A stretch of 20,710 nt of DNA from IMG/VR virus record IMGVR_UViG_3300025138_007091, positions 1 to 20,710 of that record; one strand, given 5' to 3'. This DNA is from a virus. Shown here one piece after another: positions 7,221-13,852 of this stretch. Each line of letters begins with the position of its first letter. Position 1 is the first letter of the stretch. Under the pieces are notes generated by a model. That model worked only from the letters and a program-made list of their open reading frames with translations, was not told where the DNA came from and did no database searches. The position numbers and the translations under genes are program-made.

Positions 7221-7594
7221 ACCACTTTGATTATTTAAACTCAATCAACCATAATAAAGACGATATTATGGTTGATGATATCACTGAGAAAGCATATAAA
7301 TCATACTACATTAATAGATCATTATCCTATTTTAATGACACTATTCTTGCTGCAAATGAGATGAATAGGCATCATCATATTGACGATAGATTACAATATG
7401 ATTTTATGCGTAATATTGTTAGGAAACGAAAAAGGTTTTCTAAATGGACTAAGGCTGATAAAATGGATGCTCTAGATTCAATTAAGGAGTATTATGGATA
7501 CTCAAATCAAAGAGCAAGAGAAGTTCTAAAATTGATACCCAAAGAGCATTTAGATCATATTAGATTTAAGTTGCGTAAGGGCGGTAAAAATTAA
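7217..7594 (+). CDS. 62: gp62 clamp-loader small subunit
   Basis: This is the small subunit that completes the clamp loader with gp44. The likely start is ATG 7217, overlapping the exonuclease stop, and it gives 125 residues beginning MNHFDYLNSINHNKDD. A longer frame from 7172 lies inside the exonuclease and lacks support. The diagnostic block is YYINRSLSYFNDTILAANEMNRHHHID, then LQYDFMRNIVRKRKRFSKW and IKEYYGYSNQRAREVL, matching the short gp62 of marine T4-like phages rather than the 187-residue T4 protein. Confidence 0.88.
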   Translation: MNHFDYLNSINHNKDDIMVDDITEKAYKSYYINRSLSYFNDTILAANEMNRHHHIDDRLQYDFMRNIVRKRKRFSKWTKADKMDALDSIKEYYGYSNQRAREVLKLIPKEHLDHIRFKLRKGGKN

Positions 7595-7599
7595 AATTA

Positions 7600-7607
7600 T
7601 ATAAATA
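7600..7607 (+). promoter_or_regulatory. T4-type late promoter before regA
   Basis: TATAAATA in a 54-base intergenic gap. The longer stretch TATAAATACCATT matches the extended T4 late consensus TATAAATACTATT at 12 of 13 positions. Late promoters need only this -10 element and are read by gp55, which is encoded at 1271. It would drive regA and the co-directional genes with capsid-targeting leaders downstream. Confidence 0.8.
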
Positions 7608-7648
7608 CCATTGTCATTAATGAATATAACAAAAAAAGTGAGTTGACA

Positions 7649-8062
7649 ATGAATGAAGAAACAAATATAGTAAATTGGTCACCAACTGATATGTTGGAGA
7701 TAACTTTAAATGAACCTGATGATTTCTTAAAAGTAAGAGAAACATTAACACGAATTGGTGTATCAAGTAGGAAAGAAAATAAACTATTTCAATCTTGTCA
7801 TATCCTTCATAAACAAGGTAGATACTTTATAGTCCATTTTAAAGAGTTGTTTTTGCTAGATGGCAAAAAATCAAACTTAGAAGAAAGTGACATAGGCCGT
7901 AGAAATACTATCGCTACACTTATGTCTGATTGGGGTCTAGTCTCCATACAAAATGAATCAGTTGCTAAAAATTTAGCACCTCTGCGACAGATTAAGATTA
8001 TTCCTTTTAAAGAAAAAAGTAATTGGGAATTATGCCCCAAATATAATATAGGAAGAAAATAA
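7649..8062 (+). CDS. regA: RegA translational repressor
   Basis: RegA binds ribosome-binding regions of early phage mRNAs and represses their translation, including those of replication genes. MLEITLNEPDDFLKVRETLTRIGVSS, then LFQSCHILHKQGRYFIVHFKELFLLDGK and the terminal WELCPKYNIGRK closely follow T4 RegA. The chosen ATG 7649 gives 137 residues. T4 RegA (122 residues) begins at the equivalent of the internal methionine at 7691, but no ribosome site precedes that codon here. A TTG at 7643 is also possible. A one-base gap separates the stop from the next ATG at 8064. Confidence 0.92.
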   Translation: MNEETNIVNWSPTDMLEITLNEPDDFLKVRETLTRIGVSSRKENKLFQSCHILHKQGRYFIVHFKELFLLDGKKSNLEESDIGRRNTIATLMSDWGLVSIQNESVAKNLAPLRQIKIIPFKEKSNWELCPKYNIGRK

Positions 8063-8063
8063 A

Positions 8064-8624
8064 ATGCAGAGTTTTAAATCACATCTTATCAATGAAAGTG
8101 CGCTTAGTGCATTAAGAACCGCAACGAAAGCACATAGTGGACAGTTTAGAAAAAGTGGGGGAGAATATATTGCTCATCCAAAAGAAGTCGCTAAAATAGT
8201 TGCTAAGTTCAAACCAAAATCAAAAAATTTATCTGCATTAGTTCAAGCGGCATATCTGCATGATACTATAGAAGATACTGATTTATCACATGCTGACTTA
8301 GTAAAGCAATTTGGTGGATTGGTTGCAAATTTAGTAGATCAACTAACCACTAAGAAAGATGATTTAGAAGCAGCAGGTGGTAAGGGTGAGTATATAAAAG
8401 ATAAGATGGTCAACATGACAAGTTGGGCATTAGTTATTAAACTCGCTGATAGACTTGCTAATGTATCTGATATTAAGCAGCAGAAACCAGAATGGCAAAG
8501 AAAATATGCTGGTGATACAAAGTTGGCCCTAGACGCTGTAAAAAAAGATAGGAAACATTTGAGTCCTACACATAAGAAAATTATTAAGAATATAGAAACC
8601 ATAATCGCTCCTTATGTATCATGA
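8064..8624 (+). CDS. Small alarmone hydrolase-type HD protein with capsid-targeting leader
   Basis: A RelA/SpoT-family hydrolase domain without a synthetase domain, like MESH1 and bacterial small alarmone hydrolases. The family removes the 3' pyrophosphate from (p)ppGpp, and some members remove pyrophosphate placed on tRNA CCA ends by toxSAS toxins. All Mn-site and catalytic residues are visible: H24 is in KAHSGQFRKSG, then H38 (AHP), H66-D67 (HDTIEDT), E70, D71, D129 and N133 (KLADRLANVSD). The spacing matches MESH1. The first 11 residues, MQSFKSHLINE, precede the domain and resemble the T4 capsid targeting sequence, with cleavage expected after Glu11. The length is 186 residues. The stop overlaps the next ATG. 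Confidence 0.88.
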   Translation: MQSFKSHLINESALSALRTATKAHSGQFRKSGGEYIAHPKEVAKIVAKFKPKSKNLSALVQAAYLHDTIEDTDLSHADLVKQFGGLVANLVDQLTTKKDDLEAAGGKGEYIKDKMVNMTSWALVIKLADRLANVSDIKQQKPEWQRKYAGDTKLALDAVKKDRKHLSPTHKKIIKNIETIIAPYVS

Positions 8625-8968
8625 AACTTTTTTCTAAATTTATAACAGAAATCACTAAAAATCAACGTAAAAAGAAAGAAGCCTATGCTTTGACATATGT
8701 TCGGCAAGGTAAGATGGGTATTCTAAGGATTAGGCCATTACCAGGCAGCAAGTGGGTTGAAGTACGTGGTAAGGTAGGATTTGAAAATAATTATGATGAA
8801 AATGATTATCTACACAGAACGATGACTCTTATTGGCAAAGGTGTAAACGTATCTGATTTTGTAAATGGTACAGAGGTTGTGCTATATGATAGGGGCGATA
8901 AAGTTGCAAAACTAGCGTTAAGGGCAGTCAGAGCAATCGTAAAATATCCAGACGCACAGCATTGGTAG
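8621..8968 (+). CDS. Unknown 115-residue protein with capsid-targeting leader
   Basis: I do not recognise the body of this protein. The start overlaps the HD hydrolase stop (ATGA). Residues 1-10, MKLFSKFITE, fit the T4-type capsid targeting and gp21 cleavage pattern (I/L-x-E). The rest is basic and beta-rich (AYALTYVRQGKMGILRIRPLPGSKWVEVRGKVGFENN; later MTLIGKGVNVSDFVNGTEVVLYD), suggesting a small barrel, possibly nucleic-acid binding. There is no Cys or membrane segment. Its place between two RNA-processing enzymes with similar leaders suggests it is also virion cargo. Confidence 0.8.
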   Translation: MKLFSKFITEITKNQRKKKEAYALTYVRQGKMGILRIRPLPGSKWVEVRGKVGFENNYDENDYLHRTMTLIGKGVNVSDFVNGTEVVLYDRGDKVAKLALRAVRAIVKYPDAQHW

Positions 8969-8978
8969 GGAATAATAA

Positions 8979-10202
8979 ATGAAAAGTTTTATATCTCATT
9001 TAAATGAAAGTATGTTAGAAAAACTTTTAACTATGAAAGTTAGAAAGTCTATTAAAAACGCTGGTGGTAAAATCTATCAAATTGGTGGTGTGGTTCGTGA
9101 TGAACTACTTGGAAAGGTTTCAAAAGACTTAGACTTAATCGTTGTTGGTGTAGAACTAAGAGACTTAGAAAGTATATTAAAGCCTCATGGTAAAGTGAAT
9201 ATGGTTGGTAAATCTTTTGGTATTCTGAAATTTGTACCAACAGGTTCAACGGAAGAAGAGGATGTTGATATTTCAGTACCAAGAGTTGACTCTAAGAGTA
9301 CTGGTGCTGGTCATAAAGATTTTGAAGTACAGTTAGGAAAAGGTATTACTTTACAACAAGATCAGTTAAGAAGAGATTTTTGGATAAATCAATTGGCTAA
9401 AGATGTTGATACTGGAGAAATTATTGACACTGATGGCAAGGGTATGAAAGATATTAAGAATAAAGAAATTCGTATGATCAGTCCTACTTCATTTGAAGAT
9501 GATCCTTTAAGAATGTTAAGAGCCATTCAATTCGCGGCTAGGTTTGAATTTAAAATTGAAAAAAATACCTTCAAAGAAATGAAAAAACAAGCGCATACTA
9601 TTTCATCAGTTTCTTCTGATAGATTTAATGAGGAATTTAAAAAACTTTTCACCAAATCAAAAAAACCATCAATCGGTGTAAAACTTTTATTTGAAAGTGG
9701 ATTGATAAAGCATCTATTCCCAAAAGCATCTATTAAAGACATTAATTTAAAAGCATTAGATAAACTAGAAACTTTTGATGGGTTTAATAAAAACTATGGT
9801 GCTTTTATAGGAATGGTTCTAATGAGTTATAAGCAAGACGCTGGTAAAATTGCCAAGGCTGGAATGAAATTATCTAATATTGATTCTAAAGCAGTTCAAT
9901 CTGTAACTTCATACAAAGATATGGATTTAGTTAAATTAGTTGGATGGGCTAAAGATAACGATATTAAATCTGTTGATGCTTATCTTACCGCTATAGGAAA
10001 ACCAACAGTATCATCAAAATTAGAAGGTGTTAAATATCTTTCAATTAAAGAACTACCTATAAATGGAAAAGATGTTTCTCAATTGGGATTTAAAGGTAAA
10101 AGTATAGGTGATGCCTTACAATCCGCATTAGATTTTTCTATTAAGACTAATAAAACAAGTAAAAATGATCTTCTTAAATATATAAATAGTAAGAACAAAT
10201 GA
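8979..10202 (+). CDS. CCA-adding/poly(A) polymerase-type tRNA nucleotidyltransferase with capsid-targeting leader
   Basis: A class II nucleotidyltransferase that builds or repairs the CCA 3' end of tRNA, or adds A tails. Motif A is GGVVRDELLGK (36-46) followed by the metal-binding D50-L-D52, with a third acidic strand VDIS near 96-99. RRDFWINQLAKD is at 131-142, EDDPLRMLRAIQFAARF at 173-189, and RFNEEFKKLF follows. The C-terminus keeps the usual ELPINGKDVSQLGFKG turn. The length is 407 residues, full size for the family. Residues 1-10, MKSFISHLNE, are an extra leader ahead of the domain and fit the prohead-protease pattern. CCA versus poly(A) specificity cannot be settled by eye. Confidence 0.9.
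   Translation: MKSFISHLNESMLEKLLTMKVRKSIKNAGGKIYQIGGVVRDELLGKVSKDLDLIVVGVELRDLESILKPHGKVNMVGKSFGILKFVPTGSTEEEDVDISVPRVDSKSTGAGHKDFEVQLGKGITLQQDQLRRDFWINQLAKDVDTGEIIDTDGKGMKDIKNKEIRMISPTSFEDDPLRMLRAIQFAARFEFKIEKNTFKEMKKQAHTISSVSSDRFNEEFKKLFTKSKKPSIGVKLLFESGLIKHLFPKASIKDINLKALDKLETFDGFNKNYGAFIGMVLMSYKQDAGKIAKAGMKLSNIDSKAVQSVTSYKDMDLVKLVGWAKDNDIKSVDAYLTAIGKPTVSSKLEGVKYLSIKELPINGKDVSQLGFKGKSIGDALQSALDFSIKTNKTSKNDLLKYINSKNK
10181..10188 (+). promoter_or_regulatory. T4-type late promoter inside the end of the nucleotidyltransferase gene
   Basis: TATAAATA lies in the last codons of the upstream gene, 28 bases before the start of the cupredoxin-like virion gene at 10217. A strong AGGAG ribosome site (10204-10208) lies between them. 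Confidence 0.7.
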
Positions 10203-10216
10203 TAGGAGACTGAAAC

Positions 10217-10789
10217 ATGGCGTGGGTAAATATTACAAACAATTCTAGTTGGCAATATGACAATGCCCCAGTTGATCCCGGTGCTAATAGTCCATTAAGA
10301 CCTCTATGGTTAAAACAAACTAACGGTATTAGAACTACAAATGGTCATGCTGTGTATACAAGTGTTCGTAAAACCATCGCGACTGCTGGTACTGTTACTT
10401 TTGCTATAACTGTTTCAAATCCCGGTTCTGGAAATAAATACTACATAGACTCTGGTGGTCCAGCCCCAACAGTAAGTTTGATAGAAGGTAGAACATATAA
10501 ATTTGACCAATCACACTCTTCTAACTCAAACCATCCGCTAAAATTCAGTATAACATCCAACGGGATACATGGTGGCGGGAGTGAGTACACAACAGGAGTA
10601 ACAACGTCAGGAACTCCGGGAAGTGCTGGAGCATATACTCAGATAGTTGTTGCAACTTCTGCACCTACCTTATATTATTATTGTACAAACCACAGCAATA
10701 TGGGCGGGACTGCAAACACTCCAGCATCTAGTACGTCTACAGTTTCTATGGGTGAAATTAGTAAAACCTTTTGGGATAATGTATCATGA
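10217..10789 (+). CDS. Virion-type protein with cupredoxin-like copper motif
   Basis: A protein of 190 residues. The N-terminal 60 residues (MAWVNITNNSSWQYDNAP, RPLWLKQTNGIRT) look like those of marine phage structural proteins. The second half is a beta-rich Gly/Ser/Thr domain seen repeatedly in marine T4-like virion and fibre proteins. It holds H106 (SNHPLKF) and the cluster C156-x2-H159-x2-M162 in YYYCTNHSNMGG, the His-Cys-His-Met set of type 1 copper proteins, though the H-M spacing is shorter than in plastocyanin. No signal peptide is seen. Its own late promoter and ribosome site support late structural expression. Copper binding is inference. Confidence 0.8.
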   Translation: MAWVNITNNSSWQYDNAPVDPGANSPLRPLWLKQTNGIRTTNGHAVYTSVRKTIATAGTVTFAITVSNPGSGNKYYIDSGGPAPTVSLIEGRTYKFDQSHSSNSNHPLKFSITSNGIHGGGSEYTTGVTTSGTPGSAGAYTQIVVATSAPTLYYYCTNHSNMGGTANTPASSTSTVSMGEISKTFWDNVS

Positions 10790-11055
10790 TTAAGTTTATA
10801 ACATTTATAACTGATGAGTATCAGAGAGATTACAAAAAAGAACGAAAAAACTATCTTGGTACTCCAGAACAGATGGAAAGAAACGCTGCTAGAAAACGCG
10901 CTAGAAGAAAGATGGAAAAAGAGGGTAAAGCAGAGCCTTTTGATGGAAGAGATATTCATCACAAAGATGGTGATCCACTCAATAATAATCCCAAAAATTT
11001 ATCAAGTGTAACTGTTCATTATAATCGTAAAGAGCCAAGGATGAGAGATAAATGA
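10786..11055 (+). CDS. HNH-like small nuclease with capsid-targeting leader
   Basis: A very basic protein of 89 residues. IHHKDGDPLNNNPKNLSSV (57-75) followed by H78 and N80 (VHYNRK) fits a compact HNH core with the His pair, the Asn-rich turn and a final His/Asn. The stretch before it (ERNAARKRARRKMEKEGKAEPFDGRD) is a basic helix like that of small HNH proteins widespread in T4-like marine phages. The first 11 residues, MIKFITFITDE, resemble the leader of its neighbours, but Asp occupies position 10, so the cleavage pattern is imperfect. The start overlaps the virion gene stop and the stop overlaps the next ATG. Confidence 0.75.
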   Translation: MIKFITFITDEYQRDYKKERKNYLGTPEQMERNAARKRARRKMEKEGKAEPFDGRDIHHKDGDPLNNNPKNLSSVTVHYNRKEPRMRDK

Positions 11056-11453
11056 AAACATTTAAAAATTTTATAACAGAAGATAAATGCGATTTAGTGG
11101 GTATGAAACAAATCAAAGCATTTGAATCCATTGTAGATAAATTGTTCAAAAAGTATGGGATTGATTTTAAATTCACTCGTCATTTTGGTGATAGGATGGG
11201 AGACGATAGGAACAACCCTTGCATTTCTATGAAAGAGTTGGCAGAATTTATAAAAAAGATTTACGCAAGGCAAGGCAAGTCGCTTAAAGGTGTGGCTGGC
11301 GCAGAAGCGGTAATTAAAGATATGCAAACTAATTTAAATATTCCAGTAGCAGTTAAGTATGATCAAAGAAAAGATGAATTTGATGTTGTACTGAAAACGA
11401 TTATGCGTAAAAAAGATTTTAAAACACCAGATAAAATAATAAAATATGCGTAA
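11052..11453 (+). CDS. Unknown protein with capsid-targeting leader, possible BECR-type RNase
   Basis: A protein of 133 residues. MKTFKNFITE (1-10) is nearly the same as the T4 internal protein III leader MKTYQEFIAE. The body carries FTRHFGDRMGDDRN (41-54), GAEAVIKDMQTNLNIPVAVKYDQ and a terminal VVLKTIMRKKDFKTP, a conserved pattern in marine T4-like phages. The order His, Arg, conserved strands and Thr/Lys near the end recalls phage Barnase-EndoU-ColicinE5/D-RelE-like nucleases. That match is weak and I cannot confirm it without a profile search. It closes a three-gene overlapping run from 10217. Confidence 0.8.
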   Translation: MKTFKNFITEDKCDLVGMKQIKAFESIVDKLFKKYGIDFKFTRHFGDRMGDDRNNPCISMKELAEFIKKIYARQGKSLKGVAGAEAVIKDMQTNLNIPVAVKYDQRKDEFDVVLKTIMRKKDFKTPDKIIKYA

Positions 11454-13797: not shown

Positions 13798-13845
13798 CAC
13801 AGATCATATTTTAAGTTTATGATCTGTAAATCATATTATTATTTT
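13798..13845 (+). terminator. Inverted repeat with T-rich tail before the gp43 promoter
   Basis: ACAGATCATA (13799-13808) pairs with TATGATCTGT (13818-13827) across a 9-base loop. A T/A-rich tail with TTTTT follows about 15 bases later. It looks like an AT-rich bidirectional transcript end insulating gp43 from the upstream genes. The tail does not follow the stem directly, so confidence is moderate. Confidence 0.45.
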
Positions 13846-13852
13846 TAATTTG

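Follow-up and report, generated by a model that had tools for sequence, protein, structure and literature searches.

The locus and its probable late promoter

The DNA examined here (the window, 20,710 nt in full) is a 20.7-kb record of a T4-like marine phage. Several of its genes we take to encode a sliding clamp, a clamp loader, a RegA-like protein, an SbcC-like recombination protein and a family B DNA polymerase, and a gene for an SbcD-like recombination protein was identified by search. Outside the structural cluster, surrounded by replication and recombination genes and by genes for putative head-internal proteins, lies an ORF with an ATG start on the + strand (10217-10789) that encodes a protein of 190 amino acids, P0001. 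A first-pass annotation had assigned to the interval 10181-10789 a virion-like protein with a His-Cys-His-Met copper motif and its own late promoter. The interval holds for the gene but not for its start, as 10181 is the first base of the motif TATAAATA and the gene begins at 10217. The positions given for the four residues (H106, C156, H159 and M162) are exact in the numbering of the 190-residue protein, whose histidines are at 44, 100, 106, 118 and 159, whose methionines are at 1, 162 and 178, and whose sole cysteine is C156. Full-length orthologues were found at loci L001/L002 (identical with L319/L320), L321 and L327, with ~86% identity where measured. The features of the gene and of the region in front of it are:

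10181..10188, + strand: TATAAATA, T4-type late promoter motif (from its position, its conservation and the depletion of ATAAATA elsewhere)
10204..10208, + strand: AGGAG, ribosome-binding site, kept or nearly kept in orthologues
10217..10789, + strand: P0001 gene, a core with an inserted, predicted cupredoxin-type domain (ORF; full-length orthologues)
10217..10372, + strand: N-terminal part of the core protein, residues 1-52, common to domain-less forms of 70-77 amino acids
10385..10726, + strand: predicted cupredoxin-type domain, residues 57-170, an eight-stranded beta sandwich (AlphaFold2, Foldseek, in-frame absence in relatives)
10532..10534, + strand: codon of His106, predicted copper ligand, conserved in 96.4%, aligned with the first His in plastocyanin/azurin-type profiles
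10682..10684, + strand: codon of Cys156, predicted copper ligand, conserved in 96.0%, in register
10691..10693, + strand: codon of His159, predicted copper ligand, conserved in 95.7%, in register
10700..10702, + strand: codon of Met162, predicted axial copper ligand, conserved in 95.7%, in a C-x2-H-x2-M loop of amicyanin length
10727..10786, + strand: C-terminal part of the core protein, residues 171-190 (...GEISKTFWDN), retained in domain-less forms

The motif TATAAATA is the late promoter of T4, and NATAAATA is the motif reported in cyanophages (PMC2984593). The copy at 10181 sits within the preceding gene (tRNA nucleotidyltransferase), at its 3' end. As the raw count of TATAAATA in the window is not enriched (3 versus 4.3 expected), the case for a promoter is built on position, conservation and depletion elsewhere. 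Two of the three sites in the window precede a gene start by 36 and ~49 nt. The motif at 10181 was retained at -32 to -37 in all eight relatives checked; locus L317 retains it although two upstream genes are deleted there. ATAAATA is depleted about threefold in the window (5 versus 15.2 expected), with all five occurrences on the + strand, which is what selection against sequences resembling late promoters would produce. These data support the view that a conserved late-type promoter drives the P0001 gene, and they bear out the late promoter that the first-pass annotation had proposed.

The genes on either side of P0001 share an N-terminal pattern, M-x-x-F-x-x-[FH]-[IL]-x-E, which is found in 5 of the 30 ORFs of the window where 0.017 would be expected:

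8064-8624: HD-domain hydrolase
8621-8968: gene without an assigned product
8979-10202: tRNA nucleotidyltransferase
10786-11055: HNH protein
11052-11453: gene without an assigned product

The same pattern is carried by 7 of the 12 ORFs at L327, which had not been used to form it; in relatives the regions with the pattern span 2416-7186 of L321 and 2145-6298 of L327. All five N-termini resemble the capsid-targeting sequence of T4 with its prohead-protease site, the role of which has been described (PMC3012670), and it is possible that the five genes form a cassette of head-packaged, injected enzymes. P0001, unlike these neighbours, has no match to the T4 capsid-targeting pattern, and its N-terminus (MAWVNITNN) is not a signal peptide either.

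An optional insert in a small core protein

The first 58 residues of P0001, used as a query, retrieved 18 loci in viral_contigs and nothing in annotated phages. The setting was that of the window, behind TATAAATA, at 11 of the 18 loci. Seven of these 11 (L317, L318 and L322-L326) encode a 77-amino-acid protein without the domain, while L319/L320, L321 and L327 carry the domain. At L328-L334 a core of 70-73 amino acids was found in other settings, the domain-less cores of these distant relatives lying in non-structural neighbourhoods. The C-terminal part of the core in P0001 includes a predicted helix at residues 179-187 (DSSP on the model). The window and L317 share 98% identity: the two sequences are 99.5% identical up to 10374 and 97.9% identical from 10722 on, the domain is absent from L317 in frame, and two genes at 8620-10177 are lost as well. 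The 1.56-kb segment 8620-10177, which holds two putative head-internal genes, is missing at position 3967 of L317, with the junction exactly at TATAAATA. L317 also has an extra ORF of 195 amino acids (7289-7895) relative to 13843-13846 of the window.

The first-pass annotation had missed that the domain is an optional in-frame insert in a 77-residue core and that it is widespread. Since sister phages do without it, the domain is dispensable. We propose that a late phage core protein of 77 amino acids received a complete cupredoxin-type domain (~113 amino acids, residues 57-170) in frame. In the tree, the domain of the window falls with the second copies found in tail-fibre-like proteins that have the domain in tandem (support 0.966), and the L321 contig has, in addition to its full-length orthologue, a partial ORF of 464 amino acids with another copy of the domain. 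These sequence relationships point to module exchange with tail genes, from which the domain may have come.

Predicted fold of the domain and its four predicted ligands

AlphaFold2 modelling of P0001 on an alignment of 116 diverse relatives gave a full-length model with pLDDT values of 92-98 over residues 60-170 and below 50 over residues 1-50. A domain-only model reached a mean pLDDT of 96.8 and a pTM of 0.89. The domain is predicted to form a Greek-key beta sandwich of about eight strands (59-67, 74-77, 93-97, 108-111, 128-131, 140-144, 152-156 and 164-167). Comparing the domain-only model with the PDB by Foldseek placed copper proteins of the cupredoxin superfamily at all of ranks 1-31; the matches included three-domain nitrite reductase (TM 0.64), rusticyanin, AcoP, CueO and 2vmj, a nitrite reductase carrying a transplanted CTPHPFM loop of amicyanin. 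With the full-length model the first ten matches were copper proteins, and some Ig domains came below them. Given that the E-values are modest (8e-4 to 1e-2; none below 1e-3 for the domain-only model and one, 8e-4, for the full-length model), the assignment of the fold is drawn from the consistency of the match list and not from any single match. The topology of the model is canonical for a cupredoxin: H106 stands just before strand 108-111, C156 ends the penultimate strand 152-156, and H159 and M162 are in the loop preceding the last strand, an arrangement consistent with the four ligand atoms converging on one point. The domain thereby has the motif His...Cys-x(2-4)-His-x(2-4)-Met in its canonical topological positions, with three of the four residues in register and the Met placed as in amicyanin. 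The best overall fold matches, rusticyanin and the N-terminal cupredoxin domain of three-domain nitrite reductase, differ from the phage domain in having longer ligand loops and enzymatic or respiratory roles.

As a single sequence P0001 had no significant match in Pfam, NCBIfam or the PDB, and no cupredoxin family was reached at cut-off. Profile-profile comparison by hhalign with a plastocyanin/azurin-type profile of 31 proteins from bacterial genomes gave a score of 36.7 (probability 84.9%, single-comparison E 6e-6) and put H106, C156 and H159 in register with the copper ligands; the controls scored 13.7 (reversed profile) and no more than 13.9 (60 column shuffles). The Pfam family of plastocyanin and azurin (Copper-bind, PF00127) weakly matched 13 of the 116 relatives (best domain E 2.5e-5); at its curated cut-off of 21.2 bits P0001 had no match, and relatives L125 and L145 reached 15.3. 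The Met position in the phage domain is that of amicyanin and not that of plastocyanin, and a long conserved loop at residues 112-128 (GTHGGGSEYTTGV) sets the phage family apart from PF00127. Within this loop, most phage copies but not all bacterial ones share a further histidine, His118 (10568-10570 of the window). Ten sequences came back from a profile search of the PDB with the broader alignment A2; pseudoazurin or plastocyanins made up five of these and were aligned through C..H..MG, with E-values (0.7-0.9) that are not significant. The narrow alignment A1 returned noise only. The Pfam family CBM_4_9 gave weak matches in 21 of the 116 members (best 1.6e-4) and was not adopted, because the fold search and the ligand evidence indicate cupredoxins.

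The C-x2-H-x2-M spacing, which the first-pass annotation had considered unusual for a copper site, is exactly that of the ligand loop of amicyanin (PDB 1aac). Amicyanin is a beta sandwich with the same His-Cys-His-Met set (His53, Cys92, His95 and Met98) and the identical loop, C92-T-P-H95-P-F-M98 (PMC12723479), and two of its mutants, 3rym and 2idq, were among the Foldseek matches of the phage domain (TMt 0.52-0.55) at ~14% sequence identity between amicyanin and the phage domain. The two differ in their setting: amicyanin is a secreted single-domain electron carrier between methylamine dehydrogenase and a cytochrome, whereas the phage domain is built into larger proteins, as an insert or as one of their modules.

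To follow the four residues across the family, we gathered copies of the domain by a DNA pattern for GSEYTTGV, which contains no ligand, and combined them with the earlier sets into 286 unique copies, of which the 277 that span residues 94-156 were used for the statistics. All four ligands were present in 264 of the 277, and each residue was conserved in about 96%. The 13 copies with any loss fell into one that had lost a single ligand, four that had lost three and eight that had lost all four, so that 12 of the 13 lack three or four. This share of multiple loss, 0.92, was reached by none of 7315 quadruples of other conserved positions, for which it was at most 0.56. Degenerate copies still have 14 to 20 of another 22 conserved positions. 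Alignment gaps stand at the C-terminal ligands in four copies, where the sequence is YYYAEGT... or ILTYSDAG... and contains no Cys-His-Met. When three truncated copies are discounted, the losses represent about six independent lineages on a tree from which the ligand columns had been left out. The domain evolves under purifying selection (dN/dS ~0.2-0.3). Chance is excluded as an explanation for the four residues, given that about 96% of copies retain each of them and that losses are joint and not single; the pattern is that of joint selection on the ligands. Several lineages keep the scaffold without any ligand, which argues against the earlier suggestion that copper simply stabilises the fold, and for a functional site where the ligands are kept.

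Together, fold, topology, the in-register profile match and the concerted loss support the His-Cys-His-Met site of cupredoxin type that had been read from the sequence. On the strength of the models, P0001 probably carries a type-1-like copper-type module, in which H106, C156, H159 and M162 would form a type-1-like copper site on a short, amicyanin-type loop, and we consider it quite likely that the domain binds copper. Fold and site are of a kind already known; the novelty lies in a large family of cupredoxin-type domains with an amicyanin loop, interchangeable among tail and late proteins of phages.

Carriers of the domain and its proposed role

The profiles of PHROG 27200, 30742 and 693 matched P0001 with E-values of 6.5e-24, 5.6e-19 and 1.8e-17, respectively, and the PHROG tail fibre/baseplate profiles cover its residues 39-174, placing it in this domain family of marine phage tail fibres. 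The tail fibre proteins of these PHROGs and of PHROG 677 and 708 contain the same domain at 40-86% identity in one or two copies each; they are large tail proteins, in contrast to P0001, where the domain sits within a core of 77 amino acids. By tblastn the domain was found in 100 phage records, mostly of cyanophages and also of pelagiphages and Methylophilales phages, commonly under names such as tail fiber, baseplate, virion structural protein and hypothetical protein. Cyanophages S-TIM5 and P-HM2 are examples in which an annotated structural protein contains it. IMG/VR holds at least 594 relatives, most of which have one or two tandem copies inside proteins of ~240 to 1400 amino acids. An ORF of 3274 amino acids on the minus strand of L308 has at least seven copies or remnants, some intact and some ligand-less. 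Neither Pfam, NCBIfam nor PHROGs name the family as a cupredoxin at their cut-offs, and the descriptions of the five PHROGs mention neither copper nor cupredoxin. In the open-access literature searched we found no description of the domain as a copper protein, an absence that does not prove novelty.

The domain is also present in bacterial assemblies, some of which are prophages or co-assembled phage contigs. It accompanies DUF7507/DUF11 repeats in large proteins of Flavobacteriia (L101) and DUF4214 in Prochlorococcus (L148) and in a betaproteobacterial assembly (L145), and it occurs in T7-type tail fibres in Pelagibacteraceae assemblies (L094 and L142). In SAR86, three loci (L121, L144 and L155) encode small lipoproteins that consist of a lipobox, a glycine linker and a lone domain with intact HCHM. 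Cupredoxins work outside the cytoplasm, and the lipoproteins put an intact HCHM domain in that compartment; judged by their sequences, they are possibly an unrecognised copper protein.

Four other explanations were weighed against a copper site on a particle protein. That the domain serves adhesion as an ordinary Ig-like or beta-sandwich fold and binds no metal, its four residues being conserved for structure or contact only, fits the annotation of the P-HM2 relative with an Ig V-set domain (PF07686), the presence of Ig domains after the cupredoxins in the Foldseek list and the persistence of the scaffold in ligand-less copies. However, cupredoxins rank above Ig domains in that list, PF07686 had no Pfam match in P0001, the residue types and their order are exactly those of type-1 copper, the four are lost jointly, unlike every control quadruple, and a cysteine is retained in an extracellular-type domain without a disulfide partner; we regard this explanation as improbable. 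Somewhat less probable still is a site for a different thiophilic metal, be it Zn or the Fe that has been suggested for the HxH of phage tails, with a structural or receptor-mimicking part. It is favoured by the iron in tail fibres of T4 and marine phages, which has been proposed to exploit metal uptake by the host (PMC11705849), and by the conserved His118 in a conserved loop nearby. Against it, 96% of copies retain the Met, the loop is of the type-1 copper kind, and the iron sites of T4 are HxH motifs in an intertwined fibre of other architecture. The iron of T4 gp37 and the 'Ferrojan/Trojan horse' idea (PMC11705849) likewise place a transition metal on a phage appendage, but with other metal chemistry, fold and residues than the predicted mononuclear His2CysMet site.

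A redox carrier at the host surface, or an auxiliary metabolic gene such as petE, would account for the type-1 ligand set and for the single-domain lipoproteins of SAR86, which would be periplasmic or outer-membrane proteins, and cyanophages do carry the plastocyanin gene petE (PMC2984593). petE likewise is a cupredoxin encoded by a marine myovirus (PMC2984593), but it is a host-derived metabolic gene, whereas the phage domain is a virion/tail-type family of its own. P0001 has neither an NCBIfam match nor a signal peptide, and no conserved redox partner is encoded nearby. Its relatives mostly belong to tail fibres or large adhesins, often as tandem copies, and it is difficult to see how electrons would pass from there to a partner. 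This explanation is the least probable of the four, and electron transfer as the function of the domain is very improbable. There is a modest chance that P0001 is late but not on the outer surface, either packaged with or near the head-internal proteins or a non-virion protein of the lysate, in line with the position of its gene among neighbours whose N-termini resemble the capsid-targeting sequence of T4 and with the non-structural neighbourhoods of the domain-less cores of distant relatives. P0001 itself, however, begins without such an N-terminus (MAWVNITNN), and the other carriers of the domain are tail or surface proteins.

Returning to a copper site on a particle protein, we consider it reasonably probable that P0001 is located on the particle, as the relatives of its domain are tail and virion proteins, although the gene itself lies apart from the structural cluster. 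In marine phages the domain is a mobile building block, found once or twice per protein in tail fibres and in proteins associated with the baseplate. For this reason we propose that its most likely role in P0001 is that of an accessory decoration or host-surface contact module; P0001 itself would be late and probably particle-associated, and the metal ion would be part of a contact or ligand site and not a folding device. A part in surface contact is tentative, its chances falling a little short of even. More speculative, and on balance doubtful, is the general idea that marine tailed phages carry copper-loaded type-1 cupredoxin domains as interchangeable modules of the particle, used in host-surface contact (e.g. 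to dock onto proteins that handle copper or transfer electrons). Phages would then be copper ligands of the ocean, which parallels for copper what has been put forward for iron in tail fibres.

Should the site bind copper, an accessory domain that is among the commonest in tail proteins of marine phages would be an unrecognised metalloprotein, and virion copper, copper-dependent adsorption and the part of phages as trace-metal ligands would become testable with cultured cyanophages. Near-identical phages with and without the domain, and intact and degenerate copies adjoining each other in tail proteins, provide a natural experiment. The occurrence of the domain in SAR86 lipoproteins and in adhesins of Flavobacteriia suggests a surface chemistry common to marine bacteria and their phages.
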